A DNA stretch of 31,753 nucleotides, taken from NCBI GenBank assembly GCA_013151235.1, contig JAADIO010000052.1, positions 1-31,753 of the forward strand. The letters run 5' to 3'. Every line of letters begins with the position of its first letter. Position 1 is the stretch's first letter. The notes beneath the pieces are model-generated. The model made no database searches and was not told the origin of the DNA. It saw only the letters and a program-made list of their open reading frames with translations. This DNA comes from Deltaproteobacteria bacterium. GTDB lineage: Bacteria > CG2-30-53-67. Shown one piece after another: positions 7,189 through 31,008 of this stretch. The position numbers were made by a program, and so were the translations under genes.

Positions 7189-7215
7189 TTCCAAACCTCC
7201 GTTCGATTTTGTTTA

Positions 7216-7245
7216 TATCTGAACATGTGCGGATATGTTCAGATA
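7216..7245. promoter_or_regulatory. ArsR/SmtB-type operator overlapping the feoB promoter
   Basis: There is a perfect inverted repeat TATCTGAACAT-N8-ATGTTCAGATA, with arms 7216-7226 and 7235-7245. The TGAACA/TGTTCA cores match the general form of SmtB/ArsR operators. On the minus strand a TATAAA follows the distal arm and a TGAACA (4 of 6 to TTGACA) lies 18-19 bp before it, so repressor binding would block the promoter. It sits 28 bp upstream of the feoB ATG. Confidence 0.75.
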
Positions 7246-7252
7246 AGTTGGC

Positions 7253-7283
7253 AAAAAAAATTCACCCGGCCTCCACATGCCGG
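7253..7283 (-). terminator. Intrinsic terminator at the end of the arsR-type gene
   Basis: On the minus strand a CCGGC-N8-GCCGG hairpin (arms 7279-7283 and 7266-7270) overlaps the last codons of the arsR-type gene and is followed after a few bases by a run of eight T (7260-7253). It would separate arsR transcription from feoB. Confidence 0.6.
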
Positions 7284-7618
7284 ATCCCTTCTTCAAACAG
7301 AGTGCGCACATGATCGTCGTCGAGTGAGTAATAGACCATTTTGCCGTCCTTTCTCGATTTGACCAGCCGGGCGGAACGCAGAATACGCAGTTGATGAGAA
7401 ATCGCTGATTGGGTTGCGTTGACCACGGCGGCAATGTCACAGACGCAGAGTTCTTCTTCGGAGATTGCGTGTAGAATTCTCACCCGGGTCGGTTCGGCCA
7501 GAACTTTGAAGATCTCGGCCAGGTCGACGATGGTTCGATCATCGTTCATCCGGGCCCTGGCTCTCTCCACCCGTTCTTTATCTACATAGTAGATCTGACA
7601 AATATCGTTTGCCGTCAT
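7262..7618 (-). CDS. ArsR/SmtB-family metal-responsive repressor, upstream of feoB
   Basis: The start is the ATG at 7618 (118 residues). The frame is open to a TTG at 7657, but that TTG overlaps the promoter -10 and cannot be the start. The winged helix-turn-helix spans about 35-100 (LAEPTRVRILHAI, then SAISHQLRILRSARLV, and the wing KDGKMVYYSLDD). The alpha-3 motif ELCVCD has the CxC pair used for As(III)/Cd-type sensing. In the last helix the D-x-H and a His 11 residues later are present, but the final ligand of the classic alpha-5 zinc site is out of register. The gene probably represses itself and feoB through dyads at 7629-7644 and 7216-7245. The inducing metal cannot be settled from sequence; control of an iron transporter by this family is notable. 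Confidence 0.88.
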   Translation of the reverse strand: MTANDICQIYYVDKERVERARARMNDDRTIVDLAEIFKVLAEPTRVRILHAISEEELCVCDIAAVVNATQSAISHQLRILRSARLVKSRKDGKMVYYSLDDDHVRTLFEEGIRHVEAG

Positions 7619-7628
7619 ATCTGCTCGT

Positions 7629-7684
7629 ATGAATAGTCGTTCATGCGTTGTGGACAATTTACGTTGTTTTGATGTTCATGTCAA
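7629..7684 (-). promoter_or_regulatory. Promoter and operator-like dyad of the arsR-type gene
   Basis: On the minus strand, TTGACA (7679-7684) and TAAATT (7656-7661) are separated by 17 bp. Just downstream, ATGAA-N6-TTCAT (7629-7644) forms a dyad between the expected transcription start and the ATG at 7618. Extra TGTTCA/TGAACA half-sites lie around the -35. Confidence 0.65.
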
Positions 7685-7964
7685 GAAGAATCTGAACAGA
7701 AGTTCCCCCAAAAACATCCACCCTCCAGGTCTCAATTGTTGAAAAGAAGAAGGACACTTGTTGTGCAACGTGTCCGGGGGGGGAGGGGCAAGATTCGGGG
7801 AAGTCCTGGAATCTGGATTTAAGATTCAAATTGTTGCCGCAAGGCTCTCAACCGGGACGTAAAATTTATTCGTTCTTTTTGACGGCTGCCGTCCGGAAAA
7901 TCGGTTGATTTGACAAATGCTTGCCGGTGTGGTTTGTTTTAAAAAAACATAGAGGAGGAAGATC
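7685..7964. other. Divergent intergenic region upstream of the copper ATPase
   Basis: No gene was seen. It contains a hairpin (GGACAC/GTGTCC arms, 7752-7775), a short perfect dyad GACGGC-T-GCCGTC (7881-7893), a TTGACA at 7910-7915 that is the best -35 candidate for the downstream ATPase (no good -10 at normal spacing), and a strong GAGGAGGAAG ribosome-binding site before 7965. The activator or repressor of the copper operon is not evident. Confidence 0.5.
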
Positions 7965-10505
7965 ATGTCACAGGATCCGGTTTGCAACATGGAGGTTTCG
8001 AGCGATTCCTCCAATCACTTCCACCACGAAGGGCAGGAGTATTACTTCTGCAGTGAACACTGCCTGCACAAGTTCAAAGAAAACCCGGATGAGTTCGTAA
8101 AAACGGGGTCTTCCCTCGATCCGGTCTGCGGGATGGAGGTTTCGGACGATTCCTCCAATCACTTCCGCCACGAAGGGCAGGAGTACTACTTCTGCAGCGA
8201 GCACTGCCTGAACAAGTTTAAAGAAAACCCGGATGGGTTCGTGAACAAGGCCCCTTCCGCGGAAACAGGCGGTGGAGCCGGCACCTACACCTGCCCGATG
8301 CACCCGGAGGTGATGCAGGACCACCCGGGTTCCTGCCCCAAGTGCGGGATGGCACTGGAACCGATGGTCGCTCCGGTTATGACGTCCGCAACCGCATATA
8401 CCTGCCCGATGCACCCGGAGGTGATGCAGGACCATCCCGGCCCCTGCCCCAAGTGCGGCATGGCATTGGAACCGGTGACGGTGCAGGCCGAGGAGAAGAA
8501 CGAAGAACTGATCTACATGAGCCGACGTTTTTGGGCCGGTCTCGTATTGACGATCCCCGTTTTCGTTCTCGCCATGGTTGCCGACCTGCTCCCGTCGTGG
8601 CTGCCGGCCGGCCTTTCCATGCACACGGTTCAATGGATCGAGTTTCTCCTGGCGACACCGGTCGTGCTGTGGGGCGGGTGGCCCTTCTTTGTCCGGGGTG
8701 TGCAGTCGGTCAGGACCTGGAACCTGAACATGTTTACATTGGTCGGTCTCGGCATCTCGGTCGCATGGGGATACAGTGTGGTAGCGCTTTTGTTCCCCGG
8801 GATCTTCCCGGCCGTCATGCGGAGTGACGCAGGCCTGGTCTCCGTCTATTTCGAGGCCGCGGCGGTGATCACGGTCCTGGTGCTGCTCGGACAGGTACTG
8901 GAACTGCGCGCCCGTTCCCGGACGAACGCCGCGATACAGATGCTCCTCGGCCTCGCTCCGAAGACGGCCCGTATCGTGCGGAAGGACGGGACCGAAGAAG
9001 ATATCCCCCTGGAGGATGTGAAGCCGGGTGACACCCTGCGTGTGCGTCCCGGCGAGAAGATTCCCGTGGACGGCACGGTACTCGAGGGGGAAAGCAATGT
9101 CGATGAATCGATGGTCACCGGGGAGCCGATCCCTGTGGCAAAGTCGGCCGGGGAGAAACTGATCGGTGCGACGGTCAACGGGACGGGTGGCCTCCTGATG
9201 CGTGCGGAGAAGGTTGGCTCGGACACCCTCCTTGCACAGATCATCCGGATGGTGGCCGACGCGCAGCGTTCCCGGGCGCCGATCCAGAAGCTGGCCGACG
9301 TGGTCGCGGGTTATTTCGTGCCCGCGGTGGTTGCTATATCTTTACTCACATTTTTTATCTGGTGGGGTGTGGGGCCGCAACCGCGCCTGGCCCACGCGGT
9401 CATCAACGCCGTCGCGGTCCTGATCATCGCATGCCCCTGCGCGCTCGGTCTTGCCACACCGATCGCCATCATGGTGGGAACCGGCCGGGGTGCCATGGCC
9501 GGGGTCCTGATCAAGAACGCCGAGGCCCTCGAGATTATGGAAAAGGTCGATACCCTCGTCGTGGACAAGACCGGCACGTTGACGGAAGGGAAACCGAAGC
9601 TGGTCGCCGTACGCACCGAGGCGGGATTCACGGAGGACGAGGTGCTCCGCATGGCCGCCGGGCTCGAACGTGCGAGCGAACACCCCCTGGCGGAGGCGAT
9701 CGTGGCCGGTGCGGAGGAGAAGGGAGTCGAACCGTCAAAAGCGGAAAACTTCCAGTCCGTAACCGGCAAGGGGGTTACGGGAGAAGTCGACGGGCACAGG
9801 GTCGGGATCGGAAATGTCAAGCTGCTGGAAGATTTGGGCATTGACCCGGGAGCGTTGCCTCAGGAGGCGGACCGACAGCGTGCCGAAGCGAAGACGGTGA
9901 TGCTGGTTGCCGTGGACGGCAAGGCGGCGGGGCTGATCGCTGTCGCCGATCCGATCAAGGAATCGACGGCCGAAGCCATTCGCGATCTCCATGCAGAGGG
10001 GATACGGGTCGTCATGCTGACCGGTGACAGTCGGGCCACGGCAGAGGCCGTTGCCGGCAAACTGAAAATCGACGAGATACACGCCGAGGTCCTGCCGGAA
10101 CAGAAGTCGGAGGTGGTGAAACGGCTCCAGGCGGAAGGGCGTATCGTCGCCATGGCGGGGGACGGGATCAACGACGCCCCGGCGCTGGCGCAGGCGCAGG
10201 TCGGAATTGCCATGGGGACCGGAACGGACGTGGCGATGGAGAGCGCGGGGGTGACACTGGTCAAGGGGGATCTGAGGGGGATCGTCCGGGCAAGGCGACT
10301 GAGCCGGGCCACCATGCGGAACATCCGGCAGAACCTCTTCTTCGCCTTCATCTATAATTCCGCGGGGGTGCCGGTTGCGGCCGGGATCCTCTATCCCTTC
10401 TTCGGGATCCTGTTGTCGCCGATCATCGCCGCTGCGGCCATGAGCTTCAGCTCGGTCTCGGTGATCAGCAATTCGCTGAGGCTGCGGAATGTGCAACTCA
10501 ACTAA
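7965..10505 (+). CDS. P1B-type copper-translocating ATPase with two YHS and two CPMHP metal-binding modules
   Basis: The protein has 846 residues. The N-terminus carries two YHS domains (about 4-46 and 52-93; [16 protein letters not shown] ... YYFCSEHC) and two short heavy-metal-binding modules (about 108-133 and 145-170; [15 protein letters not shown] ... CPKCGM). A standard P1B ATPase follows: CPC at 490-492 in the membrane, phosphorylated Asp in DKTGT at 534, a SEHPLAEA motif, TGD and [10 protein letters not shown], with [15 protein letters not shown] in the last helices. CPC together with MSxxS is the P1B-1 (Cu+/Ag+ export) signature. There is no classic CxxC HMA domain. It is the first gene of an operon with the YHS-reductase fusion 40 bp downstream. 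The start is supported by a strong Shine-Dalgarno sequence. Confidence 0.93.
7974..8245 (+). repeat. Tandem duplication of the YHS-coding segment (144-bp offset)
   Basis: The segments from 7974 and 8118 encode almost the same 42 residues and are near-identical at DNA level, offset by 48 codons. This indicates a recent in-frame duplication. Confidence 0.85.
8286..8474 (+). repeat. Tandem duplication of the CPMHP metal-binding module (111-bp offset)
   Basis: Two copies beginning at 8286 and 8397 encode the same [13 protein letters not shown]...[10 protein letters not shown] module with almost identical DNA, 37 codons apart. Confidence 0.85.
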
Positions 10506-10545
10506 GCCGGCTTGGTAAAAGGTCCGCCAATTAAGGGAGAGAGTC

Positions 10546-11619
10546 ATGGAACGGGATCCGGTATGCAACATGGAGGTCAAAGAGGACTCGGCCCTGACTG
10601 TGGAACGGGAGGGAAAGACCTACTTCTTCTGCTCCGAGGGGTGCCGGAAGAAATTCCTCCGGGGGTCCGGAAATACGCATGACAAAAAGGTCTACGACCT
10701 CCTGATCCTCGGGGGGGGACCCGCCGGCCTGACGGCGGCGGTCTATGCGGCGACCCTGCGGATGGAGGCCTTCCTGATCACCAAGGACCTGGGGGGCCAG
10801 GCAGTCGACAGCACGCAGATCGAGAATTACATGGGGTTCGATTTTATTGCGGGGACCGACCTGGTGAAGAAATTTGAGGATCAGCTTCTCCATTCCCACT
10901 ACATCGATCACCGGATCGGCGAGGTCCGGAAAGTCGTCCCGGACGGAGAGGTATTCCGGGTCACCGTGGATGAAGGAGAGACCTTCCGGGCCCGTGCGCT
11001 GATCCTCGCCACCGGCATGCGCCGCAGGAGGCTGGACGTCCCGGGGGAGGAAGCCCTGCAGCGGCAGGGGGTCTTCTACGGCAACATTCAGGATGCCTCC
11101 TTTGTCGAAGGGGCGGATGTGGCGATCGTGGGAGGGGGGAACTCGGCCCTGCAGATCGTAGAGACCCTTCATTCCGTGGTCGGGACGATCCACCTGATCT
11201 GCAATTCCACCCTCAAGGCCGACCCGATCGTAATCGAGCGGGTCGAGGCCTTCCCCGATCTCGTCAAGCACGAAGGATACGAGGTCCTGGAAATCACCGG
11301 GGAGAACAGGGTGGAGGGGATCTCCATCCGAAACCGGAGCGGCGGTGAAGTGGAGCATCTTGCCGTGGGAGGGGTCTTCATTTCCATCGGGCTCTACCCG
11401 GACTCCTCCATCTTTGAGGGATTGGTGGATCGAAACAAACGGGGAGAGATCCGAATCGCCCCCGACTGCTCCACCTCCCGGCCGGGGATCTTTGCCGCGG
11501 GGGACCTGACCGACGCCTACGGCAAACGGATCGTCATCGCCTCGGGAGAGGGGGCCAAGGCCGCACTTGCCGCTCGGGAATACCTTCTGAAGTTGTCCTC
11601 CGGCCCTGCGGCGTCATGA
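10546..11619 (+). CDS. YHS domain fused to a thioredoxin-reductase-like flavoprotein without the redox CxxC
   Basis: The protein has 357 residues. Residues 1-40 are a YHS metal-binding domain (DPVCNMEV ... YFFCSEGC). From about 45 a two-dinucleotide-domain flavoprotein follows, with the FAD motif LLILGGGPAGLTAAVYA, an ILATGMRRR linker and the NAD(P) motif VAIVGGGNSAL. An FAD-closing FAAGDLTD stretch is near 325. In thioredoxin reductase the CATC disulfide precedes the NAD(P) motif; here that place reads GVFYGNIQDASF, so no active-site disulfide exists. It resembles the ferredoxin/flavodoxin-NADP reductase branch of this family. Following a copper pump with the same YHS module, it may reduce a bound metal or a YHS-linked thiol; that is inference. 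Its stop overlaps the next start (ATGA). Confidence 0.88.
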   Translation: MERDPVCNMEVKEDSALTVEREGKTYFFCSEGCRKKFLRGSGNTHDKKVYDLLILGGGPAGLTAAVYAATLRMEAFLITKDLGGQAVDSTQIENYMGFDFIAGTDLVKKFEDQLLHSHYIDHRIGEVRKVVPDGEVFRVTVDEGETFRARALILATGMRRRRLDVPGEEALQRQGVFYGNIQDASFVEGADVAIVGGGNSALQIVETLHSVVGTIHLICNSTLKADPIVIERVEAFPDLVKHEGYEVLEITGENRVEGISIRNRSGGEVEHLAVGGVFISIGLYPDSSIFEGLVDRNKRGEIRIAPDCSTSRPGIFAAGDLTDAYGKRIVIASGEGAKAALAAREYLLKLSSGPAAS

Positions 11620-11782: not shown

Positions 11783-13909
11783 TTACGCAAATGATGCAAC
11801 CGCAAGGAAGACGAGGAGTGCCAGGAGAGCGTACCCTGCATAGTTATTGATCCGGCCGTTGTGCATGCGGGCAAGCCGGCCGGCGATCCATTGTGCGGCG
11901 GCTGCCGGGGGATGTAGAATCAGGCGGTCGATCAGATGTACTTCCTCACGTTTCCGGCGGATTGCCACGCGGAAGTGCTCGGCGATGGTCTCGCTGCGGT
12001 TCACCACTCTGGGATGCAGGATCGCGTCAAAGATCACCCTCACGGGCTGGGCGAATCCGGTCGCCGTATAAGTCATCTCCGGCAGAAGGTGCCTGACTCC
12101 GCCGTCCCACCTGGGGCGGCGGACGACCCGGCGCCGTCCGGCAAAGACGAACCGTACGATGATTGCGCTGATACCGAGCAGGAAGATAAGGGTTAAAAAC
12201 ATGTACGAGGTGGACATGGCGAAGACGACGGGGTTTTTTGCTCCGCCGCGATGAAGGACCGCCAGGCCGCGGCCCGGGAGTATGCCCAAGCCGATCCGGG
12301 CGCCTAAATCGTGAAATTCGGAAGCGAAATCGGCAGGTAGTTGATCCGCGGGGGGATTTCCTGCAAAGAAGGGGGGGACGAGTGCGTCGGTGCCGCTCGC
12401 ATTGGTGATCGGTAGCACGGCCCGGTCCACGGCAGGGATCACGTAGGTCGGAAGCACCCCCAGCGCCAGGCATACCAGTGCAAGGAAGGCCATAGAGGCA
12501 AGGGCCGACTTGCCGGTCTCCCGCGCGGTGGAGGCAGCCTTGGATCTGGGCATTCCCAGAAAGCCCATGGAGAAGGCCCGGACAAAACAGGTGACGGCAA
12601 GTCCGGCGGTCAGCGCAAGACCGGCGCCTGCCGCCACAAAGGATATCTTGACACCGAGAGAGACCAGTTCCACGCTGCGCAGGAGTGACTCGATCGTAAG
12701 CCATTCACTGACGAATCCGTTGAAAGGGGGCATGGCGGAAATGGAGAGTGTCCCGACCAGAACGAAAAGCCCGGTCCAGGGCATCTTTTTGAGCAGGCCG
12801 CCCAGGCGGTCGAGGCTCCGTGTTCCGGCAGCACTTTCCATGACCCCGGCCCCCATGAAGAGCAGGGTTTTAAAAACGGAATGGTTCAGAAGGTGATAGA
12901 GCGTTGCGACAAAGGCGATGGCAGCCGGGATCCGGTGACCGGTTGCAAGAAACAGAACACCGGCCCCAAGTGCGGTGGTGATGATCCCGGCGTTTTCGAT
13001 GGAGCTGTGGGCCAGCAGCGTCTTGAAGTCGTCCTCAATGGTTGCATAGAGAATACCGATCAGGGCGGTGACCGATCCGGTAATGAGCATGACGGCGCCG
13101 GTCCCGACCTGCGTAACCGGCAGCAGATCGGCAGTCACACGGATGATACCGTAGAGGCCGAGGTTCAATGTCGCTCCGGCAATCAGCGGTATGCATGCGG
13201 ATGGAGCTGCGGTATAGGCTTGCGCGACCCAGAAATTCAAGGGGATCAATCCGGCTTTTACCCCGAATCCGATAAAGGAGAGGGCGAAAACGGTCCACCG
13301 TATGCCGTTTCCCAGGCCGGGGGCCGTTGTTCTCAATGCATCGAAGCTGAGTGCCCCGGAATGTACCGACAGTAACAGGAAGGCGGCCAGGACGGCAAGT
13401 GTACCCGCCTCGCCGGTGGCCAGCATGAGATACCCCGGACGCTCGCCGGCAACGGTGATCATCAGGTAGATGAGAATTGACATGATCTCCCAGGCCACGA
13501 GAAACAAAAATATATCCCCGGCGATAAGGACCAGGAGGATGGCGATTAACAGACCGAGGTACAGCGCGGCGAGGATGCCGCGATGACGTCCTTGATCGCA
13601 GCGTATTCGGTCGGCGGCGAAAATGGAAGCAGGCATGGCGACCAGAGCAGTGGCCACCAGGAAAAAAGCCGAGAGGTGATCAACGGTTATGGTCAACTCC
13701 CCTGTGCCGGGAAGGGTCCAGAGCGAGGCATGGAAAGGGCCGGCGGCGAAGAGGGCGCCTGTGCCGTAGATCAGCAGCGTCAAAGAACCGAGTCCGCCGA
13801 AGCCGGCCAGCGCAAAGGGGGATCTCTTTTCCGGCAGCAAGAGTACCGCCGTGATTCCCAGGGAATAGAGTCCGAAGGTGATGATCAGTAACTGGCCGGG
13901 ATCGGTCAT
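11783..13909 (-). CDS. hyfB: Hydrogenase-4 component B-like / NuoL-family ion-translocating membrane subunit
   Basis: This 708-residue polytopic membrane protein has the proton-antiporter fold shared by NuoL, MrpA and HyfB. The conserved Glu of the WEIMSI helix (about 140-145) and the Lys of GFGVKAGLIPLNFW are present, as is the HHLLNHSVFKTLLF-type region (here LYHLLNHSVFKTLLFMGAG). The C-terminal third is the variable HyfB-type extension. It should be an ion-translocating subunit of the Ehr complex. It is the last gene of the operon and starts by ATGA overlap with the small-subunit gene. HyfB genes usually come near the front of such operons, so the order is shifted. The stop lies six bases from the sensor-kinase stump and no terminator is visible. 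Confidence 0.88.
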   Translation of the reverse strand: MTDPGQLLIITFGLYSLGITAVLLLPEKRSPFALAGFGGLGSLTLLIYGTGALFAAGPFHASLWTLPGTGELTITVDHLSAFFLVATALVAMPASIFAADRIRCDQGRHRGILAALYLGLLIAILLVLIAGDIFLFLVAWEIMSILIYLMITVAGERPGYLMLATGEAGTLAVLAAFLLLSVHSGALSFDALRTTAPGLGNGIRWTVFALSFIGFGVKAGLIPLNFWVAQAYTAAPSACIPLIAGATLNLGLYGIIRVTADLLPVTQVGTGAVMLITGSVTALIGILYATIEDDFKTLLAHSSIENAGIITTALGAGVLFLATGHRIPAAIAFVATLYHLLNHSVFKTLLFMGAGVMESAAGTRSLDRLGGLLKKMPWTGLFVLVGTLSISAMPPFNGFVSEWLTIESLLRSVELVSLGVKISFVAAGAGLALTAGLAVTCFVRAFSMGFLGMPRSKAASTARETGKSALASMAFLALVCLALGVLPTYVIPAVDRAVLPITNASGTDALVPPFFAGNPPADQLPADFASEFHDLGARIGLGILPGRGLAVLHRGGAKNPVVFAMSTSYMFLTLIFLLGISAIIVRFVFAGRRRVVRRPRWDGGVRHLLPEMTYTATGFAQPVRVIFDAILHPRVVNRSETIAEHFRVAIRRKREEVHLIDRLILHPPAAAAQWIAGRLARMHNGRINNYAGYALLALLVFLAVASFA

Positions 13910-14664
13910 TGAGCGTCTCCTCCTCCCGTAGATGCAGCGGGCTTCATGGGTTGCACCGCCTCCTTGCGTCCGGCAAGGATCAGCAGGCCGTACAGGATGG
14001 CCGTCGGCGGGGGTGGACAGCCCGGGATTTCAAGATCAACCGGCAGGATGTCGGCGACCCCGGCGCCGGTCACGAAACCGGGTCCGAACAGCCCGCCGCT
14101 CAGTGCGCAACTCCCGACGGCCGCAACCCGTTTCGGCTCGGGCATGGCCTCGTAAGCCTTCATCAGGGGGGTCTTCATCTGGTCGGTAACCGGTCCGACC
14201 ACCAGGAGGATATCAGCCTGCCGGGGTGTCGGGGTGATGAAAAAACCGAGCCGGTGCATATTATAGAAGGGATTGTTCAGGAGCCTGACCTCGTTGAGGC
14301 AGGCCCCGCAGTCGCCGGCATCGACGATGCGGATGTGTAGTGATTGTCTGAATGCTTTCGGGAAAACCGATGAGGTTTTCTCAAGCTTCGCCCATTCGAA
14401 TCCGGTCTCCCACCGGATCGGTTTCGCAGTCTCCCGTGCACATCGATAACAGTGGATACACCGTGCACGCTCCACAACGATCCGATCATCCGCCTGCTGC
14501 AACGCACCTGCCGGACATAATGCGGTCAACCCTGCGCTGTCGGTCTTCCCGCAGACCGTATCCTGCGGCATTCCCGGGGAGGTCCCGGGGGTATCCTCCA
14601 TTTTCGCCGGGTAACGAGTGGTGACCACCCCGGTTTGCAGGCCCTTGAGTATCCACCGGCTCAT
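13906..14664 (-). CDS. hyfI: Ehr small subunit: 4Fe-4S ferredoxin domain fused to NuoB/HyfI-like domain
   Basis: The protein has 252 residues, with AGGAGG before the ATG at 14664. The N-terminal ~80 residues carry one ferredoxin-type site: Cys50 followed by Pro, and CxxCxxC at 69, 72 and 75; a second site is missing. The rest is the NuoB/HyfI domain with all four proximal-cluster cysteines: DCGAC (119, 122), GSC (186) and PGC (216). It therefore combines the jobs of HyfH and HyfI in one chain and should relay electrons on the cytoplasmic side. Intact cluster ligands here contrast with the lost NiFe ligands in the partner large subunit. It lies downstream of the embedded transporter gene and is coupled to the NuoL-like gene. 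Confidence 0.88.
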   Translation of the reverse strand: MSRWILKGLQTGVVTTRYPAKMEDTPGTSPGMPQDTVCGKTDSAGLTALCPAGALQQADDRIVVERARCIHCYRCARETAKPIRWETGFEWAKLEKTSSVFPKAFRQSLHIRIVDAGDCGACLNEVRLLNNPFYNMHRLGFFITPTPRQADILLVVGPVTDQMKTPLMKAYEAMPEPKRVAAVGSCALSGGLFGPGFVTGAGVADILPVDLEIPGCPPPPTAILYGLLILAGRKEAVQPMKPAASTGGGDAQ

Positions 14665-14708: not shown

Positions 14709-15767
14709 TTACGCCTTCGTCGTGATGTACAGGCCGGCGGCTGCAAAAAAAGCGATATACCCCATGATCAGGAACAGGGCTGTAAAGGATGCGGTATCGT
14801 TTGTGTTTTCATCGGTGATATAGAGTTTGTAGGCAATCATGTTTGCCAGGGATCCGAAGATACTGCCGAACCCCCCGACGTTCGTTCCCCAGAGCAGGGC
14901 TTTCCAGTTTGATGTGAACTTTGCGAAGAGGAGCGTTGACGGGACATTGCTCATGATCTGCGAGGCGAGGGCGGAAAAGAGGAATACATGCCCGGCGTGC
15001 TTGATCTCGGATGCCATCAGAATCTTCAGGTTTTCAGCAAGACCGAAGAAAAAGAAGAAGCTGAAGAGGAGGAAGTAGTCCACGTGCAGGGCTTCCCGGT
15101 CGAAGAGAAGTGCATAAACGACAACGATCCCTGAGGCGCGAATCGGCAGGATGTGCAGTACGGAGAGGAGGACGATGATCAGGAGGATCCCGTGGACGCT
15201 GGACCTGGCCGTATTGTGCATTGCCTCGGTGCTTTCCGGCGTTGCCTGTAAATGAATCGTGAGGGACAGGATAACCGGGAATAGAATCATCAGGGAAAAG
15301 GGGGCGATGGAGGTGATGAATTCCGCAGGGGACAGGTTGTAGAACCAGTAGATATAAAGATTCTGAGGGTTCCCGAAAGGGGTCAGGGCCGATCCTGCGT
15401 TTGCGGCCAGGGCCTCCAGAATCACGAGAAGGCCCCTCCTGTCGATGTTGAGCGCCAGGGTCAGCGGGACAATCACAAGGAGGGCGATATCATTTGTAAC
15501 GACCATCGAAAGAAAGAATGTCGTGACGATCAATTTGAGGGGGACCCCTCTTCCTTTCTCGATGCTTCGGGCAAACCTCGATATAATCCCACTCTGCTGC
15601 AAGCCCTTGACCGCTATAAAGAGGACAAAGAGGATGAAGAGGACCTGCATTTCCCGGGGCGAGGGGACGGGCGGATGTCCCGTATAGATGGATGTCAGGA
15701 GGAATCCAGTGCCGGAAGCGAGGAGCAACCATTCTTTTAGGATAAAATCGAACAATGCGTCTTTCAT
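14709..15767 (-). CDS. Ion-transporter superfamily permease (ArsB/NhaD/SLC13-like) embedded in the Ehr operon
   Basis: This 352-residue membrane protein has about ten hydrophobic helices. Two family signatures are clear: the VVTNDIALLVIVPLTLAL stretch near 110-130 and the re-entrant GSALTPFGNPQNLYIYW near 145-165, with a second half-repeat (LASQIMSNVPSTLLF, then LWGTNVGGFGSIFGSLANM). These are typical of the ArsB/NhaD/SLC13 ion-transporter superfamily, which moves anions or exchanges Na+ for H+; the substrate cannot be read from sequence. It lies between the large- and small-subunit genes of the Ehr complex, 33 and 44 bp from its neighbours and on the same strand. It should therefore be on the same fluoride-riboswitch-controlled transcript. 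It is shorter than many SLC13 members (400-450), but both half-repeats are present. Confidence 0.82.
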   Translation of the reverse strand: MKDALFDFILKEWLLLASGTGFLLTSIYTGHPPVPSPREMQVLFILFVLFIAVKGLQQSGIISRFARSIEKGRGVPLKLIVTTFFLSMVVTNDIALLVIVPLTLALNIDRRGLLVILEALAANAGSALTPFGNPQNLYIYWFYNLSPAEFITSIAPFSLMILFPVILSLTIHLQATPESTEAMHNTARSSVHGILLIIVLLSVLHILPIRASGIVVVYALLFDREALHVDYFLLFSFFFFFGLAENLKILMASEIKHAGHVFLFSALASQIMSNVPSTLLFAKFTSNWKALLWGTNVGGFGSIFGSLANMIAYKLYITDENTNDTASFTALFLIMGYIAFFAAAGLYITTKA

Positions 15768-15800: not shown

Positions 15801-17381
15801 TTACCTGTCGTTTTCGGCCACGGAGAGCCCGAACGTCGCCAGGATGATCGGGAAGTCCTGGAATGCAAAGTTCTCGGCCGCCAAGTGAAATCCGTGCCAG
15901 TTCGTGAAGGAGGGGGTGATCAGCCGGTACCTCTTCACCGTCCCTGCATCGTCGATGCGGATCCAGTGCCACGTTGCTCCGCGCGGGGCCTCGACCCCCG
16001 CCAGTGCAACCCCCTCTGCGGGTTTGCAGGGAACCCGGACCGGACCATTCCGCAGCGCCCCGGTTGCCTGCTCCATGAGATGGACCGCCTCCCTTGCCTC
16101 GGTGAGGAGTACCCGAAGGCGCGCATAGCCGTCCCCTTCATCCTCGCAGGGGAGGCGGAACTTGAAGGCATCGTAGGCCGCATAGGGCTGCATCCTCCTG
16201 AGATCGTTGCAGCAGCCCGACCCGCGGGCCACGGGACCTACGAGCCCATGGTTGCGGGCCTCCTCTCTGGTGACGATCCCCACTTCCTCGATCCGGTCGA
16301 GGAAACTGCTGGTGTTGATCAGTATTTTTTCAATTCCGTTCAGGCGCCGGACAATACCCCCGGCCCGGGCTACGGTCTTGCCGCATGCCCGGTCATCCAG
16401 GTCGCGGCTTAAACCGCCGGGGACAGCCATGCCGAAGAGATAGCGATGGCCGGTGAGACTGCCGGAAAGCCTGAGCGCCTCTTCCTCCAGGATCGCCGTC
16501 TGGTTTGCGGCGACGACCAGCCCGGTGGAGTTGCAGATTCCTGCGACGGTTCCCAGGTGATGGCGGAACCGTTCCAGTTCGGAGAGGAAGACCCTTAATA
16601 CGCCGGCGCGTTCCGGTACCTCCGTGTCGCCGAGCTGTTCCACGGCCATGCAACCGGCGAGAGCGTGGGAGAAGGCCGTGGTGCCGGCGAACCGCTCGAC
16701 CATGAGGAGCGCATCATCGTATGCGCGCCCTTCCGCTCTTTTCTCCACACCGCGGTATTTGAAAAAGAGCCGGGGAAAGATCCGAATCACTTCTTCTCCG
16801 ATGGTCTCCAACTGGAAATGGACGGATTCCGCATCGCCGGAGAAGATGGGACCGACCGGCATGATGAAGGCGCCGGGTGCATCCACGATCCTTCTCGGCC
16901 GCCAGTTCCGACTTGGCCTGCGGTTGGCAAGGGTGGCATCGATATCAAATCCGTTGCGCATCGGTTCCACCCCTTCCTGCCAGGCATCGTCATGGAGGAT
17001 AAAGTCTCCCAGGCGGGGATGCCCTTCAAATACCAGACCGAAGAGGTCCTCCGCCTCCCGCTCATGCCAGTCCGCGGCGTGGACCTCTCCGCAGATGCTT
17101 TTGCATAGACGTTTTTTTATGGGAGTATCGGTCCTTAACAGGATACGCCCCATCTCACCCTGCCCGGCGAAGAGGTAAAAAAGATCACACCGCTCGGCAT
17201 TTTCTTCCACGATCAATCCGGCAAAATGATAGTTCCGCCGGTTGGATAGCCAGCCGCAGACCTTGGGCAGTTCGTCATTTCCGCACACGATTTCGGTGAT
17301 CCCATTCCGGATGCCGGTAACTTTTTCAATTGCAGCGGGCCAGAGGAGAGACGCTTGCTTCGTTACCTGCTCGATATTCAT
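15801..17381 (-). CDS. hyfG: Ehr large subunit (NuoC-NuoD/HyfG-like) lacking all NiFe-ligand cysteines
   Basis: The protein has 526 residues. The ATG at 17381 is chosen because GGAGG lies just upstream and it begins 4 bp after the previous stop. A NuoC-like domain (about 1-135, HEREAEDLFGLVFEGHP) is fused to a NuoD/NiFe large-subunit domain (from about 165; FKYRGVEKRAEGR near 208-219). In true hydrogenases the next motif is ERxCGIC; here residues 229-235 read ERFAGTT. The C-terminal DPCxxC is likewise replaced by FGLSVA near the end (DFPIILATFGLSVAENDR). All four Ni-Fe ligands are gone, so the subunit cannot carry the NiFe site and fits the Ehr (energy-converting hydrogenase-related) class. 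The physiological electron donor and acceptor are unknown. Confidence 0.9.
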   Translation of the reverse strand: MNIEQVTKQASLLWPAAIEKVTGIRNGITEIVCGNDELPKVCGWLSNRRNYHFAGLIVEENAERCDLFYLFAGQGEMGRILLRTDTPIKKRLCKSICGEVHAADWHEREAEDLFGLVFEGHPRLGDFILHDDAWQEGVEPMRNGFDIDATLANRRPSRNWRPRRIVDAPGAFIMPVGPIFSGDAESVHFQLETIGEEVIRIFPRLFFKYRGVEKRAEGRAYDDALLMVERFAGTTAFSHALAGCMAVEQLGDTEVPERAGVLRVFLSELERFRHHLGTVAGICNSTGLVVAANQTAILEEEALRLSGSLTGHRYLFGMAVPGGLSRDLDDRACGKTVARAGGIVRRLNGIEKILINTSSFLDRIEEVGIVTREEARNHGLVGPVARGSGCCNDLRRMQPYAAYDAFKFRLPCEDEGDGYARLRVLLTEAREAVHLMEQATGALRNGPVRVPCKPAEGVALAGVEAPRGATWHWIRIDDAGTVKRYRLITPSFTNWHGFHLAAENFAFQDFPIILATFGLSVAENDR

Positions 17382-17385
17382 CGTG

Positions 17386-18837
17386 TTATCCTCCAAGCGT
17401 TGTTGCGGCAAGCGTGATCAGCTTCTCAAGGGGACCCGGGATGAAAATTCCCAGGACAAGTATCGGTACTGCGGCGAATATCATGGTTGTTCTGCAACTC
17501 AACGGAAGGGGCTCAGGCCTTTCTCCCTCCCCTTCGATTGTCGGGGCCGACCCGAAAACCATACGGCTGACATGATTCATGATGGCGAAAAAGGCCACGG
17601 CGATAAAGAGGAGCAGCAACCCCACGGCGACATACTCCCCCCGGTGCAGCCCGGCTTTCAGGATGGAGAACTCGCTCATGAAGATCGCGAAAGGGGGCGC
17701 CCCGGCAATGGCCAGCCCCCCGAAAAGGAGAGCGACACCGGCACCGGGGGCCCTGGTGATCAGGCTGCGTACCTCAGCGATCTCCCGGGTGCCCGTCAGG
17801 AGCAGAACACTTCCTGCGGCGTAGAAGCAGAACGATTTTGTAACGGCGTGGGCCGTGATCTGCAGCATTGCAGCGGAAGACGCCGAAACCCCTCCTAGGC
17901 CGACGGCGGTCAGGATGATTCCCATGTGCTCAATGGTGGAGAAGGCGAAGAGCCGTTTGTAGTCCTTGACCTGGACCAGCAGAAAGGCCGCCGTCCCCGC
18001 GGAGATCAGCCCGAAGACCAGCATCCAGGTATCCGGACTGACACCAGGTGCATTCCGCAGGATGGGGACCAGGCGGAGAATCGCGTAGAGGACGGCGGTG
18101 GTTTTTACGCCCGAGAGAAGTGCGCACACGGGTGTCGGCGCCTGGCTGTGGGCATCGGGAAGCCAGGTATGGAGCGGCACCAGTCCGGCCTTGGCGCCGA
18201 ACCCGAGCAGAATCAGGGCAAAGGCCGTCCGCAACAGCACGGGTGACATACGGGGGGCGCCTGCCGCCAGCCCGGCCCAGGTATAGTGTTCGATACCGGC
18301 CCTTTGTGCCGCCCAGAAAAGGATCAGGAAACCGAGCAGAGCGATGGCCGCACCCATGACCGTAAGCACAACGTATTTCCACGCAGCCTCGAGGGCTTCG
18401 TGAGAGTTCTCAAACCCGACCAGCAGCACGGAAAACAGGGTGGTCAGCTCCACGGCGATCCAGATGATATTCGGCTCCTGGACCAGGGGCACCATGATCA
18501 TGGAAAAGACAAAGAGGTTGAAATTTAGATAGTATCGACGCAGGTCGGCCCGGTTGTGATGCTTCATGTAGCCGATGGAAAAGAGAGCGGCCGTCATGTT
18601 TACAAAGGCGACCGGGATGAGAATGAGAGCGCCCGGTGCATCCAGGGCGATCCAGCCGGGGATTGCCGCCACGATGTGTCCGGGAGATGTGATGACATTC
18701 AGGGCTGCCCGCACCGACAAGGCCAGCGTGGCCATCGCCGCGATCAGGGCGATGGTCGACTCGATACGTTCCCTGCGTGTGAGAAAAGAGAGTAGTGCGG
18801 CGGCCAGCGGTATCGTTATCAGAACAAAGAGGATCAT
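17386..18837 (-). CDS. hyfF: Hydrogenase-4 component F-like / NuoN-family ion-translocating membrane subunit
   Basis: This 483-residue membrane protein has the proton-antiporter fold. The conserved Glu (IAVELTTLFSVLLVGF) and Lys (GFGAKAGLVPLHTWLPDAH) lie in the expected helices, and the loop VKDYKRLFAFSTIEHMG matches the HyfF/NuoN family closely. It is the second antiporter-like subunit of the Ehr complex. The ATG at 18837 overlaps the stop of the upstream gene (ATGA), and GGAGG near its own stop serves as the ribosome-binding site of the large-subunit gene. Length is normal for HyfF. Confidence 0.92.
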   Translation of the reverse strand: MILFVLITIPLAAALLSFLTRRERIESTIALIAAMATLALSVRAALNVITSPGHIVAAIPGWIALDAPGALILIPVAFVNMTAALFSIGYMKHHNRADLRRYYLNFNLFVFSMIMVPLVQEPNIIWIAVELTTLFSVLLVGFENSHEALEAAWKYVVLTVMGAAIALLGFLILFWAAQRAGIEHYTWAGLAAGAPRMSPVLLRTAFALILLGFGAKAGLVPLHTWLPDAHSQAPTPVCALLSGVKTTAVLYAILRLVPILRNAPGVSPDTWMLVFGLISAGTAAFLLVQVKDYKRLFAFSTIEHMGIILTAVGLGGVSASSAAMLQITAHAVTKSFCFYAAGSVLLLTGTREIAEVRSLITRAPGAGVALLFGGLAIAGAPPFAIFMSEFSILKAGLHRGEYVAVGLLLLFIAVAFFAIMNHVSRMVFGSAPTIEGEGERPEPLPLSCRTTMIFAAVPILVLGIFIPGPLEKLITLAATTLGG

Positions 18838-19529
18838 TTGTCCGGCTCCTCCCTCAGTTTGGAGAGCCTTCCCACGGCGGTGTTTCCGACTCGTTTATGG
18901 ACGGCGCCGGTCAGCACACCCACCATGAAGGTCAATATGAGAACGTCAAAGGCCAGTGCCAGTTCGGCGATCAGGGGCAGGTTGGGGGCGATTGCCACCC
19001 CGGCGAAGAACGCCCCGTTTTCCATTGCCAAAAGCCCCAGGAGCTGCGGGACCGCCTCGCGGCGGACGGTCAGCGTATAGGCGCCGAGAAGGAGCCCGGC
19101 CAGGCCGATGGGGACATTAATGCGGACGGTTCCTCCTGCGGCGGCGGCCTTGATCCATGGAAGGCTGAAGAAATATGCAGCAATCGTCAGGATCAGAGCG
19201 ATAATCAGTGAAGTCGGGATCTCGACCGCCTGCGAGATCTCCCTCCGTGTGTAGACCTCTTCACTCAACATGCGGCGCAGGAGCCACGGGAGGAACCAGA
19301 CCTTCGTGAAGAGGTTGATCGTTCCCACGGCCATGAGATGCATGGAAAAAGGACGGAGGCCCAACAGAAACGCCGCCGCGACCAGACAGAGCGATTGGAG
19401 GATAAAGAACCGGAGGCAGGCGCGCACCTGGCGCGTGGCCACGATTCCGAAGGTGGCAATGATAAAAACACCTCCGGCAAGGGAGTCCAGGTTGGTCATG
19501 AGAGGCGTAATGTTTTGAAAGACCGCCAT
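18834..19529 (-). CDS. hyfE: Hydrogenase-4 component E-like (NuoK-related) membrane subunit
   Basis: This 231-residue membrane protein has about six to seven helices. The N-terminal part (GGVFIIATFGIVATRQVRACLRFF) and the segment LGLLAMENGAFFAGVAIAP match the HyfE family, whose second half is NuoK-like with a conserved Glu in the ENGAFF helix. It forms part of the membrane arm of the Ehr complex. GGAGGCGGAG precedes the ATG at 19529. It follows the NuoH-like gene by 11 bp and overlaps the HyfF-like gene by 4 bp. Confidence 0.88.
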   Translation of the reverse strand: MAVFQNITPLMTNLDSLAGGVFIIATFGIVATRQVRACLRFFILQSLCLVAAAFLLGLRPFSMHLMAVGTINLFTKVWFLPWLLRRMLSEEVYTRREISQAVEIPTSLIIALILTIAAYFFSLPWIKAAAAGGTVRINVPIGLAGLLLGAYTLTVRREAVPQLLGLLAMENGAFFAGVAIAPNLPLIAELALAFDVLILTFMVGVLTGAVHKRVGNTAVGRLSKLREEPDK

Positions 19530-19540
19530 TCTCCGCCTCC

Positions 19541-20491
19541 TTAATGCGTGAAGACACTGGTCAGCATTGCGATGACTGCGATCACGAATGCGGCGCTCAT
19601 GAATTCACTGATCCGGAAGAGTCTCAGCTTCGCCAGTGATGACTCGATGAGAACAAGGAGCATGATAAAAAGGAGGATCTTGAACAGGACCAGCGGAACG
19701 GCAGTGAGGATCGCACCCCACTCCAGGGTTGAAGCGAGCCCCCAGGGCGTCACGAGGACGTTCAGCAAAACGATCATGAGCACGAAAAACTTCATCCAGC
19801 CGCCCCACTTCATGAGCGCGGCGCTCCGTCCCGAGTATTCCAGGTCCTTTGATTCATCGATCATGGCCAGTTCGAAATGACCGCTGGGATTGTCGACGGG
19901 GATGCGCCCCTTCTCGGCCAGGATGAGCATGACGAAGGCGACCAGGAGCAGGAGATGCGACGGCTCGAAAAAATTGGCCGGGGGCGTCACCCATTTCTGC
20001 TGTACGATAAAGGGGATGGTGGAATCGGCTACGAAGGAGACGGTAAAAAATACGATGAGAAAGATCGGTTCCGTCAGGAAACCAACCATGCGGGTGCGGC
20101 TTGCCCCCATCGGGCCGTAAGGGTTTGCCGTATCCGCTGCCGCCAGTGCGGCAAAAAATCCGCCCAACGTTAGGACGAAACCGGCGCCGACCATGTCGGC
20201 CATGAATGCCCAGAAGAGAGGATAGTCGGTCAGGACGGGGATCAGGAGCGTCACAAAGATGGGGGTGATAAAGACGATGTAGGGAGCCACACGAAAGATC
20301 CATGAACTCTCCTTCGGTACGATTTCGTCTTTGGAGAAAAGCTTTCGGAGATCCCGGTAGGGCTGGAGGATGCTCGGCCCCTTCTTGGACTGTATAATCT
20401 CCTTCAGTCGGTTCAGCACCCCCGCCGCCAGGGGGGAGAATCCCATGACCATGAGTACCTGCAGGAGATTGAATAGGATACGCTTGCTCAT
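19541..20491 (-). CDS. hyfC: Hydrogenase-4 component C-like / NuoH-family membrane subunit, first gene of the Ehr operon
   Basis: The protein has 316 residues. The ATG at 20491 has GAAGGAG upstream; the frame is open further up, but that part runs through a terminator hairpin and riboswitch leader and is not coding. Family marks are ILQPYRDLRKLFSKDE near the start and the cytoplasmic loop EKGRIPVDNPSGHFELAMIDE followed by LEYSGR, as in NuoH/HyfC, which links the soluble and membrane arms. About eight hydrophobic helices are present. It heads a seven-gene operon in the order C, E, F, G, transporter, small subunit, B. Expression is likely set by the fluoride riboswitch in its leader. Confidence 0.9.
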   Translation of the reverse strand: MSKRILFNLLQVLMVMGFSPLAAGVLNRLKEIIQSKKGPSILQPYRDLRKLFSKDEIVPKESSWIFRVAPYIVFITPIFVTLLIPVLTDYPLFWAFMADMVGAGFVLTLGGFFAALAAADTANPYGPMGASRTRMVGFLTEPIFLIVFFTVSFVADSTIPFIVQQKWVTPPANFFEPSHLLLLVAFVMLILAEKGRIPVDNPSGHFELAMIDESKDLEYSGRSAALMKWGGWMKFFVLMIVLLNVLVTPWGLASTLEWGAILTAVPLVLFKILLFIMLLVLIESSLAKLRLFRISEFMSAAFVIAVIAMLTSVFTH

Positions 20492-20569
20492 GCCCGGCTC
20501 CTTCTCCCTGAAGATGAGTTTCGGTCCCCGAGTCGTACGGTCCGTCAAGCGGTGTATGAAGGCGGGCAC

Positions 20570-20592
20570 AAAAAAACCCGCTTTGCGGCGGG
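20570..20592 (-). terminator. Intrinsic terminator in the Ehr operon leader (riboswitch expression platform)
   Basis: On the minus strand a CCCGC/GCGGG stem (arms 20588-20592 and 20577-20581, 6-nt loop) is followed directly by seven T (20576-20570). It lies between the fluoride aptamer and the first gene. The upstream leader segment GGCGGG (20618-20623) is complementary to CCCGCC (20587-20592) in the terminator's 5' side and could form an antiterminator. Confidence 0.85.
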
Positions 20593-20639
20593 CTCCAGAC
20601 CGGACAGTACCGACTCCCCCGCCACAGAACAACCTCCGA

Positions 20640-20691
20640 GACAGGAGTCATTAGCCGGATTCAGGCGATTGTACGGGAGACTCCATCCCCA
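20640..20691 (-). promoter_or_regulatory. Fluoride (crcB-class) riboswitch aptamer
   Basis: The 52-nt minus-strand segment from 20691 to 20640 matches the fluoride aptamer position by position: TGGGG-ATGGAGTC-TCCCG (P1 with the GATG bulge), then ATCGCC...GGCTAATGACTCC. The pseudoknot is exact: GGAGTC (in the 5' part) pairs with GACTCC (3' part). P2 is GCC/GGC. Length equals the well-known Thermotoga aptamer as I recall it. A second GGAGTC downstream (20612-20617) can compete for the pseudoknot strand. In the fluoride-bound state the adjacent GGCGGG would be free to block the terminator. The logic is therefore fluoride-ON for the Ehr operon. Confidence 0.92.
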
Positions 20692-20705
20692 CATTTTTAA
20701 TTTCG

Positions 20706-20734
20706 TACGGTACCATGATATGAAAAAAAGTCAA
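20706..20734 (-). promoter_or_regulatory. Weak promoter candidate for the Ehr operon
   Basis: On the minus strand TTGACT (20729-20734) lies about 40 bp upstream of the aptamer. At 17-bp spacing the -10 (ACCGTA, 20706-20711) is poor, so the -35 is plausible but the -10 is not settled. A GGTACCGTACG self-complementary stretch covers this position. Confidence 0.3.
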
Positions 20735-20925: not shown

Positions 20926-21297
20926 ATGGTTGCCATGAAGAAACGAGACCGTACATCCTGTGAAATCACCTTCGTCGACCGGCGGAGAGTCGCATCCGTC
21001 AGGAAGAGGATGAAGAGCGACGAGACCCTGCTGCGCCTGTCGGAGACGTTCCGGGCACTGGGGGACCCCACGAGGATGAAGATCATCTTCGCCCTTTCTT
21101 TGGAGGAACTCTGCGTCTGTGATGTTGCCAACCTGCTGGGAACGACGAAGTCCGCCGTCTCCCATCAGTTGAGGATCCTGCGGAACATGCGCCTGGTGAA
21201 ATACCGCAAGGAGGGGAAGATGGTTTATTACTCCCTCGATGACGAACATATCGAAGATCTTTTTGAGATGGGATTACAACATGCGGAGGAGAAGTGA
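20926..21297 (+). CDS. ArsR/SmtB-family metal-responsive repressor of the P1B ATPase
   Basis: The protein has 123 residues from the ATG at 20926; an in-frame ATG at 20935 is possible, and neither has a clear Shine-Dalgarno sequence. The winged helix-turn-helix (GDPTRMKIIFAL ... SAVSHQLRILRNMRLV ... KEGKMVYYSLDD) closely resembles the repressor at 7262-7618. It carries both known types of metal site: the alpha-3 ELCVCD Cys pair and an alpha-5 set D-x-H, then His and Glu at +11 and +14 (EHIEDLFEMGLQHAEE). It is translationally coupled to the downstream ATPase by a TGATG overlap and almost certainly represses it. A Zn/Cd/Pb-type inducer is likely but not proven. Confidence 0.9.
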   Translation: MVAMKKRDRTSCEITFVDRRRVASVRKRMKSDETLLRLSETFRALGDPTRMKIIFALSLEELCVCDVANLLGTTKSAVSHQLRILRNMRLVKYRKEGKMVYYSLDDEHIEDLFEMGLQHAEEK

Positions 21298-23201
21298 TGG
21301 GTTGTTCTTGTGGCAAAAAAGAATGTATTGAAGGGCGTTGGTGGCGTCATCCCCCCATGCGGAACGCCCTGATTTCAGGTCTCGTGACCGGCACGGCTTT
21401 TGTGCTGACCTATCTCGGGATCCTCCCGAGGTCGGCCGAGATTGTCATTTATCTCGTCGCCATCGCCATAGGAGGCTACCACTGGATGCGGGAGGGGGTT
21501 GAAGAACTGATTAAGGAGCGTGAGGTCGGGATCGATCTTTTGATGATCGCCGCCACGGTCGGTTCGGCGGTTCTCGGGATGTGGGACGAGGCCGCCTTCC
21601 TGGTCTTCCTGTACGGCGCGGCGGAGGGGCTGGAAGAATACACCTATGCCCGGACCCGGCATTCCATCCGGCAACTTCTCGACCTCGCTCCGAAAGAGGC
21701 CCGGGTCGTCCGGGAGGGGAAGGAGGTGACTATTCCGGCGGGAGAGATTCGGCCCGGGGAGGTCTTTATCGTCCGGCCGGGGGAGTCAATCCCGACGGAC
21801 GGGGTGATCATCACCGGCCGTTCTTCCGTGAACGAAGCGCCGGTGACCGGCGAGTCGGTCCCCGTGGAAAAGAAGAAGGGAATGAAGGTCTTCGCCGCGA
21901 CGATGAACGAGGAAGGGGCGCTTACGATCGAGGCCACGGCCGGATTCGAAGACAACACCCTCTCCAGGATGATTCACATGGTTGAAGAGGCGCAGGACCA
22001 GAAAGGGCGGGTGCAGTTGTTCATCGACCGGTTCGGGAAGAGATACACACCGCTGGTGCTCGTCTTTGCCCTTGGACTTCTCATCGCGCCACCCATGTTC
22101 GGGCTCTCTTTTGCATACTGGGCGGAAAGGGCGGTCGTCCTTCTCGTTGCCGCCGCACCCTGTGCCCTTGTGATGTCGACCCCCGTGGCCATCGCTGCCG
22201 GGATCGGCCTGGCCGGCCGAAACGGGGTCCTGATCAAGGGGGGCGTGGCCCTGGAGAACCTGGCCCGGATCAGGGTCGTCGCCTTCGATAAGACCGGCAC
22301 CCTGACGCGGGGTAAACCGGTCGTCACCGATGTCGTATCGTTCAACGGGAGTGAGAGCGAGATGCTGAAACGGGCCTGCAGCGTGGAGCGGTTCTCCGAG
22401 CACCCACTCGCGCGGGCGATTGCCGAAAAAGCGGAGGCATCCGGGATTGAAGGTGTTGAGGTAAAAAGGTTCAGCTCGATCTCCGGCTACGGCGCCCGGG
22501 CCGAGATTGATGGTGAGACCGTTTACGTCGGGAGCGACAAGCTCTTTGCCCGGTCCGGCCGGGATGGAGTCTCCAATGGTATGATCGAGGATCTCAGACG
22601 GGAGGGGAAGACGGTCATCTTTGTCGGCAGCGGGGAGAAGATCGACGGCATTATCGCCATCCGGGACGAGATCCGCCCCCGGTCGGAAGAGATCGTCTCC
22701 GCACTGCACCGGATGAGGATCAAGGTCGTCATGCTGACCGGGGACAACGAAACCAGCGCCGAGGCCGTCGCCCGTGAACTGAATATCGATAAGGTACGGG
22801 CCGGGCTCAAACCCGAGGAGAAGATCCGGGTCGTCCGGGAACTGGAAGAAGAATACGGTGCCGTGGCCATGGTGGGGGACGGGATCAACGATGCCCCGGC
22901 CTTAGCCGGTGCCACGCTCGGGATCGCCATGGGAGCGGCCGGGACCGATGCCGCCGTCGAGGCCGCCGACATCGCCTTGATGGGGGACGACCTCGGGCGG
23001 ATCCTCTATGCCGTCCGGCTCGGGAAGAAGTCCGGCCGGATCAGCCGGCAGAATATCGTTTTTGCGATCTCAACCCTGGCGGTTCTTATCCCGGCCGCCC
23101 TTACTGGCTGGATGAGCATCGCCGTGGCCGTAATATTCCACGAGGCCTCGGAACTCATCGCCGTTGCGAACGGACTGCGGGTCGCTCGGGAAGGGGATTG
23201 A
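21297..23201 (+). CDS. P1B-type heavy-metal ATPase (ZntA/CadA-like) with APC instead of CPC
   Basis: The protein has 634 residues from the ATG at 21297, with GGAGGAG upstream. A short Cys-rich tail (CSCGKKEC) replaces the usual N-terminal metal-binding domain. Eight-helix P1B core features are present: PTDGVIITG...NEAPVTGES, the membrane motif APC at 287-289 in APCALVMSTPVA, DKTGT with the phosphorylated Asp at 331, SEHPLA, TGDNE and [13 protein letters not shown]. The last helix reads IFHEASELIAVANGLRV. Overall similarity is to Zn/Cd/Pb exporters (P1B-2), but the first Cys of the CPC ligand pair is Ala, which should change metal selectivity. It is controlled by the coupled ArsR-type repressor. 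The protein is intact and sits in the cytoplasmic membrane. Confidence 0.92.
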   Translation: MGCSCGKKECIEGRWWRHPPMRNALISGLVTGTAFVLTYLGILPRSAEIVIYLVAIAIGGYHWMREGVEELIKEREVGIDLLMIAATVGSAVLGMWDEAAFLVFLYGAAEGLEEYTYARTRHSIRQLLDLAPKEARVVREGKEVTIPAGEIRPGEVFIVRPGESIPTDGVIITGRSSVNEAPVTGESVPVEKKKGMKVFAATMNEEGALTIEATAGFEDNTLSRMIHMVEEAQDQKGRVQLFIDRFGKRYTPLVLVFALGLLIAPPMFGLSFAYWAERAVVLLVAAAPCALVMSTPVAIAAGIGLAGRNGVLIKGGVALENLARIRVVAFDKTGTLTRGKPVVTDVVSFNGSESEMLKRACSVERFSEHPLARAIAEKAEASGIEGVEVKRFSSISGYGARAEIDGETVYVGSDKLFARSGRDGVSNGMIEDLRREGKTVIFVGSGEKIDGIIAIRDEIRPRSEEIVSALHRMRIKVVMLTGDNETSAEAVARELNIDKVRAGLKPEEKIRVVRELEEEYGAVAMVGDGINDAPALAGATLGIAMGAAGTDAAVEAADIALMGDDLGRILYAVRLGKKSGRISRQNIVFAISTLAVLIPAALTGWMSIAVAVIFHEASELIAVANGLRVAREGD

Positions 23202-29723: not shown

Positions 29724-29821
29724 GGGAGAGGATTCGGTGCTGGTGTCCGGCCCGGACTTCAAATCCGGTGGGGCGGCTTAACACCCCGCCTGGTGGGTTC
29801 GATTCCCGCCCTCTCCCGCCA
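29724..29821 (+). tRNA. selC: tRNA-Sec (anticodon TCA)
   Basis: The 98-nt gene has the hallmarks of selenocysteine tRNA: an 8-bp acceptor stem GGGAGAGG/CCTCTCCC, G73 and encoded CCA, anticodon stem CCGGA/TCCGG with loop CTTCAAA giving anticodon TCA, a long variable arm (GGCGG/CCGCC) and a T arm GTGGG-TTCGATT-CCCGC. It decodes UGA as selenocysteine with SelA, SelB and SelD, none of which is in this window. No selenoprotein gene was recognised here. Confidence 0.96.

Positions 29822-29949: not shown

Positions 29950-31008
<1,059 letters not shown>

Follow-up and report, generated by a model that had tools for sequence, protein, structure and literature searches.

The window analysed here is a 31,753-nt stretch (contig JAADIO010000052.1) from a Deltaproteobacteria genome, and on its minus strand homologues of NuoH, antiporter-type subunits, NuoCD and NuoB lie together in one operon, as recognized by Pfam and NCBIfam matches. 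The first gene after the switch, with its ATG at 20491, encodes a NuoH/HyfC-like membrane subunit (19541..20491; PF00146; 72% identity to the Nitrospirota orthologue L089), followed by a HyfE-like membrane subunit (18834..19529; NF008556 below its curated cut-off, with a position conserved in the clade described below), a HyfF-like antiporter-type subunit (17386..18837; PF00361), a fused NuoC/NuoD-type large subunit (CD) with a HycE-like fold and without NiFe ligands (15801..17381; PF00329 and PF00346), a CitMHS/ArsB-type permease (14709..15767; PF03600), a NuoB-like small subunit (B) with an N-terminal ferredoxin domain (13906..14664; PF01058 and cysteine conservation), and a HyfB/HycC-like antiporter-type subunit (11783..13909; PF00361). 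By these matches, the operon encodes a Hyf/Ehr-type membrane complex with six subunits, which belongs to the group-4 hydrogenase/complex I superfamily. Upstream of the operon, genes for an ArsR regulator and a heavy-metal P-type ATPase run divergently from it. Moreover, metal-handling genes occur on both sides of it (5197-11619 and 20926-23201), including FeoB, a P-type ATPase with duplicated YHS and heavy-metal-binding domains, and the ArsR-regulated heavy-metal P-type ATPase.

Upstream of the NuoH-like gene, a fluoride riboswitch aptamer (RF01734) was identified at 20699-20635 of the minus strand, scoring 36.1 bits (E 1.2e-6; gathering score 34), and it was the sole riboswitch match when the whole window was searched with cmscan, in agreement with the fluoride riboswitch proposed by an earlier sequence-only reading of this DNA. 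This score is modest; our own covariance model R1, which has the window sequence as one of its seeds, gave 54.7 bits. A chance match was ruled out, because the aptamer is kept upstream of orthologous operons. Within the aptamer, pseudoknot strands GGAGUC (20679..20684) and GACUCC (20644..20649) form a perfect 6-bp pairing from the loop to the 3'-strand. They are followed, on the same strand, by the 5' arm of a predicted anti-terminator (20618..20626), which includes GGCGGG (20623-20618), by a second GGAGUC that could act as alternative partner of the pseudoknot strand (20612..20617), and by the predicted 3' arm of the anti-terminator (20584..20592), which includes CCCGCC (20592-20587) and overlaps the 5' arm of an intrinsic terminator. 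The terminator feature (20570..20595) consists of a hairpin at 20595-20574, GAGCCCGC-CGCAAA-GCGGGUUU, and a T-run extending to 20570, with a computed energy of -11.9 kcal/mol in our folding script. Pseudoknot, second GGAGUC, GGCGGG, CCCGCC and terminator had all been located correctly beforehand. The terminator was absent from the list produced by a simple terminator scan, probably because T residues are consumed by the extended stem, and a sigma-70 promoter scan upstream gave no match. A second and stronger fluoride aptamer (48.1 bits) was observed elsewhere in the source genome, before a dynamin-like GTPase gene (L001 1501-1568 minus; G000:C11:2032-2099 minus).

Folding calculations support an ON switch in the window leader, since the predicted probability of the terminator at the end of the T-run was 0.98 in the free ensemble and 0.02 when P1, P2 and the pseudoknot strands were held as in the bound aptamer. 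Shuffled linkers matched this difference in 12/300 and 1/200 cases (13/500 over two runs), giving modest support to an expression platform that, by the fold model, would consist of terminator and anti-terminator. Without fluoride, the pseudoknot strand would pair downstream, so that the anti-terminator is blocked and the terminator halts transcription; in the presence of fluoride, the pseudoknot would be locked by the aptamer, GGCGGG would pair with CCCGCC, and the operon would be transcribed. The sequestration of CCCGCC by GGCGGG anticipated by the sequence-only reading was borne out in the window folding. Its account of the free state stood in part: GACUCC is predicted to pair downstream, but the second GGAGUC is a minor partner (P only 0.09-0.12), and the strand pairs mostly with GGCGGGGG and its neighbours.

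In two related leaders (L093 and L096) the second GGAGUC is also present, and a G-C pair of the anti-terminator is replaced by A-U in a compensatory change; furthermore, the L093 terminator occupies the identical position, and GACUCC:GGAGUC2 pairing is its predicted free structure. The computed terminator state barely shifts in L093 and shifts weakly in L096 when the aptamer is formed, so that support for the fold model is confined to the window. The window, L093 and L096 leaders share with the fluoride riboswitch (crcB RNA, RF01734) the aptamer, the pseudoknot and a terminator-type ON switch, but they place the terminator about 40 nt past the aptamer and join the two via a separate anti-terminator. 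In many leaders of other relatives GACUCC itself forms the 5' arm of the terminator, as in the textbook arrangement, and a strong terminator was found in 30/59 leaders vs 95/295 shuffled ones.

Relatives of the operon were found from an alignment of two CD proteins alone, ignoring the RNA. One of the two was from the window and the other from the only close orthologous operon in a 386-genome sample, on a Nitrospirota contig (G213; 56% identity in CD and 72% in NuoH), which has the window gene order minus the permease and its own fluoride aptamer just upstream, at Rfam level (42.9 bits). The CD search of genome contigs returned 121 relatives, of which 80 were kept, nearly all from metagenome-assembled genomes and with no cultured member identified among them; one of the 80 (L119) is the G213 contig, and the CD sequences of L131 and L132 are identical. 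Wherever all genes are present, the gene order is H-E-F-CD-B-HyfB, and across the 80 loci the operon holds no genes beyond the six Ehr-type ones.

The NuoH gene is included in 69/80 loci, four of which (L094, L152, L158 and L171) lack usable upstream sequence, and in all of the remaining 65 a fluoride aptamer was detected upstream of NuoH, using a covariance model trained on 16 fluoride aptamers, of which two came from window-type operons. In 60/65 the aptamer directly precedes NuoH, within 900 nt of the ORF start in 59 and also in L137, where the ORF call is over-extended; a single co-oriented gene intervenes in four loci, encoding dynamin (L111, L112 and L130) or enolase (L169), and in L165 the aptamer lies 1.6 kb upstream. 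The Rfam model passed 12/16 re-tested NuoH-proximal matches (eight among the weaker ones); L097, L146, L148 and L137 fell below its threshold, with the pseudoknot still visible by eye in the first three. By comparison, no fluoride aptamer was found in 24 loci of other hydrogenase, Ehr and complex I complexes, where the best match had an E of 0.23.

In a tree that combined the 80 CD proteins of the clade with 31 others, the fluoride-linked ones formed one group with support of 100 and a stem of 1.11 changes per column. At least 14 phylum labels are represented in this clade and are interleaved in the tree, denoting horizontal transfer. Carriage on plasmids was considered and rejected, since a CD of more than about 35% identity was absent from the top 20 of 57 plasmid records. 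Ehr complexes are energy-converting hydrogenase-related, NiFe-less relatives of group-4 hydrogenases; the clade shares this lack of the NiFe site, and differs from other Ehr complexes in its long stem, its own C-terminal signature and its fluoride riboswitch link, the other loci tested being without the riboswitch. The earlier proposal of a NiFe-less Ehr-type complex behind a fluoride riboswitch is supported, and the system it called distinct belongs to a widespread clade and is no isolated oddity.

Many loci of the clade are fluoride islands. Within about 10 kb, we found DUF190 in 26, CrcB in 21, dynamin-like GTPase in 20, enolase in 16, a MutS-domain protein in 11 and pyrophosphatase in 3 of the 80 loci, and 36/80 loci carry at least two fluoride aptamers. 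In G004, a Na_H_Exchanger gene directly follows a riboswitch. The fluoride operon of Enterobacter cloacae FRM (ppaC, uspA, eno, gpmA, crcB and orf5249) resembles the clade loci in being a fluoride island driven by a riboswitch and in carrying genes for enolase, UspA, CrcB and pyrophosphatase, but its six genes include no complex I-like operon (PMC5533749). The dynamin-like genes directly follow a riboswitch in 8 of their 20 loci, and dynamin is unmentioned in a 2024 review (PMC11139923). DUF190 (COG1993) is likely a fluoride-response family; it adjoins CrcB, directly follows fluoride riboswitches in 10 loci, and was seen, for example, at L075 4075-4419.

The structure predicted for the CD subunit of the window (pLDDT 90) comes closest to E. 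coli HycE (TM 0.92; 7z0s_E), the closest solved relative by both sequence and fold. The name formate hydrogenlyase follows from this HycE-like fold, and the catalytic metal site is nonetheless gone. In the window, the four nickel positions are occupied by A232, T235, S520 and E523, and in the clade, aligned to HycE and to loci that keep RICGxC, mostly by A/S, S/T, S and E; the NiFe cysteine ligand set is absent from 80/80 CD proteins, by which a true hydrogenase or formate hydrogenlyase was ruled out for the clade. Residues E503, Q508, D509 and E523 are present in 80/80 and lie outside the search patterns. Because the remodelled-region peptides HAADWHE and FTNWHGF were themselves used as search patterns, selection accounts for part of their conservation; the clade C-terminal signature is TPSFxNWHGFHLAAExFAFQDFP. 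Formate hydrogenlyase and hydrogenase-4 (Hyc and Hyf) have the subunit types H, HyfE, HyfF, CD, B and HyfB and the HycE fold in common with the clade, which differs from them in the loss of the nickel ligands, in the ferredoxin domain on B, in the gene order, and in having no formate dehydrogenase seen nearby: the corresponding N-terminal motif occurred in none of 50 flanking ORFs of at least 550 aa near the 80 loci.

In the membrane part, the channel Lys, His and Glu residues of both antiporter-type subunits and the acidic residues of NuoH are conserved in the clade, with the key Lys/His positions kept in 66/66 HyfB-like (K218, H343 and K347 in the window) and 69/69 HyfF-like proteins (K216, K294, H330 and K334). 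The ferredoxin cysteines of the B subunit, which form a [4Fe-4S] site, are present in 69-70/70 proteins. The window and its nearest relatives retain all four N2-type cysteines (C119, C122, C186 and C216 in the window), three of which are found in 66-70/70 clade proteins and the fourth in only 34/70, suggesting from sequence that some members of the clade may have a weakened redox arm. In the 36/70 proteins where this fourth ligand (B residue 216; L093-L172) is replaced, mostly by Asn, the ferredoxin site is intact.

Taken as a whole, a fluoride ON switch governing a NiFe-less ion-moving complex, the two forming a horizontally spread fluoride-response module, is to our judgement the probable explanation of the locus; the aptamer, operon, nickel-ligand loss, conserved ion-channel residues and conserved riboswitch link behind it were computed. 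HF is a weak acid that enters the cell and lowers cytoplasmic pH and the proton-motive force, fluoride export requires that force, and among fluoride riboswitch targets Na+/H+ antiporters rank second in frequency (PMC11139923). In this context, HF influx would acidify the cytoplasm and drain the proton-motive force required by fluoride exporters, and the complex most likely moves H+, or exchanges Na+/H+, across the membrane, probably driven by low-potential electrons passing via the conserved ferredoxin domain to some acceptor at the remodelled CD site. A complex that fluoride induces and whose ion channels are intact would suit the restoration of H+ balance, and we infer that the complex most likely restores proton-motive force and pH under fluoride; fluoride dependence in the source organism, the direction of transport, the ion, and the electron donor and acceptor are likewise inferred. 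The fuller claim of a monophyletic, horizontally transferred, nickel-free and ferredoxin-driven ion pump for the fluoride response, with a pocket of invariant His, Glu, Gln and Asp, restoring proton-motive force and mislabelled formate hydrogenlyase, is one that we hold tentatively, at slightly under even confidence.

A complex no longer driven by redox chemistry, acting as a secondary Na+/H+ antiporter of an Mrp-like kind and retaining its CD/B arm as a structural remnant, would also account for the intact charged residues of the antiporter-type subunits, for the frequent placing of Na+/H+ antiporters under fluoride riboswitches (PMC11139923; the Na_H_Exchanger of G004) and for the fourth N2-type ligand lost in 36/70; nevertheless, a vestigial arm would not need a nearly invariant ferredoxin motif (69-70/70), nor would E503, Q508, D509 and E523 be required of it in 80/80 proteins, and we regard this alternative as rather unlikely. 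The reading of the complex as a real formate hydrogenlyase or hydrogenase, switched on for a metabolic shift under fluoride as in the 2024 review, has in its favour the relation to HycE and the published annotation of riboswitch targets (PMC2864571; PMC11139923), but with the NiFe cysteine set missing from 80/80, no formate dehydrogenase-like motif in the 50 large flanking ORFs and only six Ehr-type genes in the operon, it is scarcely credible.

The embedded permease could itself be the key effector in the source genome, exporting fluoride or a counter-ion with power from the complex, and its place inside the operon, between gaps of 33 and 44 bp by ORF coordinates, suggests that it is probably co-transcribed. 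However, it is absent from 80/80 relative loci, its nearest homologues (43-47% identity) are located outside such operons, one beside hypDE and one beside a low-molecular-weight phosphatase/ArsC-like gene, and the source genome carries CrcB, along with two CLC genes, so that this role is very improbable. We read the permease as a private insertion in the window operon, and the view of it as a part of the system, taken by the sequence-only reading, is not sustained. As a general fluoride exporter it was ruled out, being missing from relatives and encoded in a genome with its own CrcB. No sequence relatives of the permease were found in the PDB. In another genome (L067 7616-10737), a homologue with 45% identity begins directly after hypD-hypE-like genes, a hint that this permease family may be tied to hydrogenase or metal metabolism.

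Turning back to the ion-moving complex under a fluoride switch, we found no paper in the literature searched that ties fluoride riboswitches to an Ehr/complex I-type pump. Baker 2012 is reportedly the source of the fluoride riboswitch target list. The placing of crcB RNA upstream of formate-hydrogenlyase-type genes, also mentioned in the sequence-only reading, is already published: formate hydrogen lyase was named among crcB-motif targets (Weinberg 2010; PMC2864571), and in the 2024 review it ranks with the most frequent targets of fluoride riboswitches and is tied to formate oxidation and fermentation (PMC11139923). For this clade the formate-metabolism reading is wrong, because the metal ligands are gone. 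The link between the riboswitch and "formate hydrogenlyase" is therefore known, and what is new is the clade, its lack of nickel ligands, its almost invariable association with the riboswitch, and the finding that the permease is not part of it. Should most "formate hydrogenlyase" targets belong to this clade, fluoride resistance would include a respiratory-type ion pump beyond exporters and antiporters. Moreover, the riboswitch gives functional access to an Ehr-type complex, one of a group with poorly known physiology, and makes its role testable.

Elsewhere in the window, tandem repeats of 141-144 bp (187-1476) extend across a minus-strand ORF (960-1853) with a signal-like start followed by a repetitive, secreted-looking protein, the frame of which seems broken within the repeats. 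A selenocysteine tRNA gene lies at 29724-29821. At 29950-30960, a GroEL reading frame is truncated to its first 277 or so residues, and this segment has a GC of 0.44 and a reversed GC skew, vs about 0.58 GC in the remainder of the window, possibly denoting a chimeric contig end or a foreign insert.
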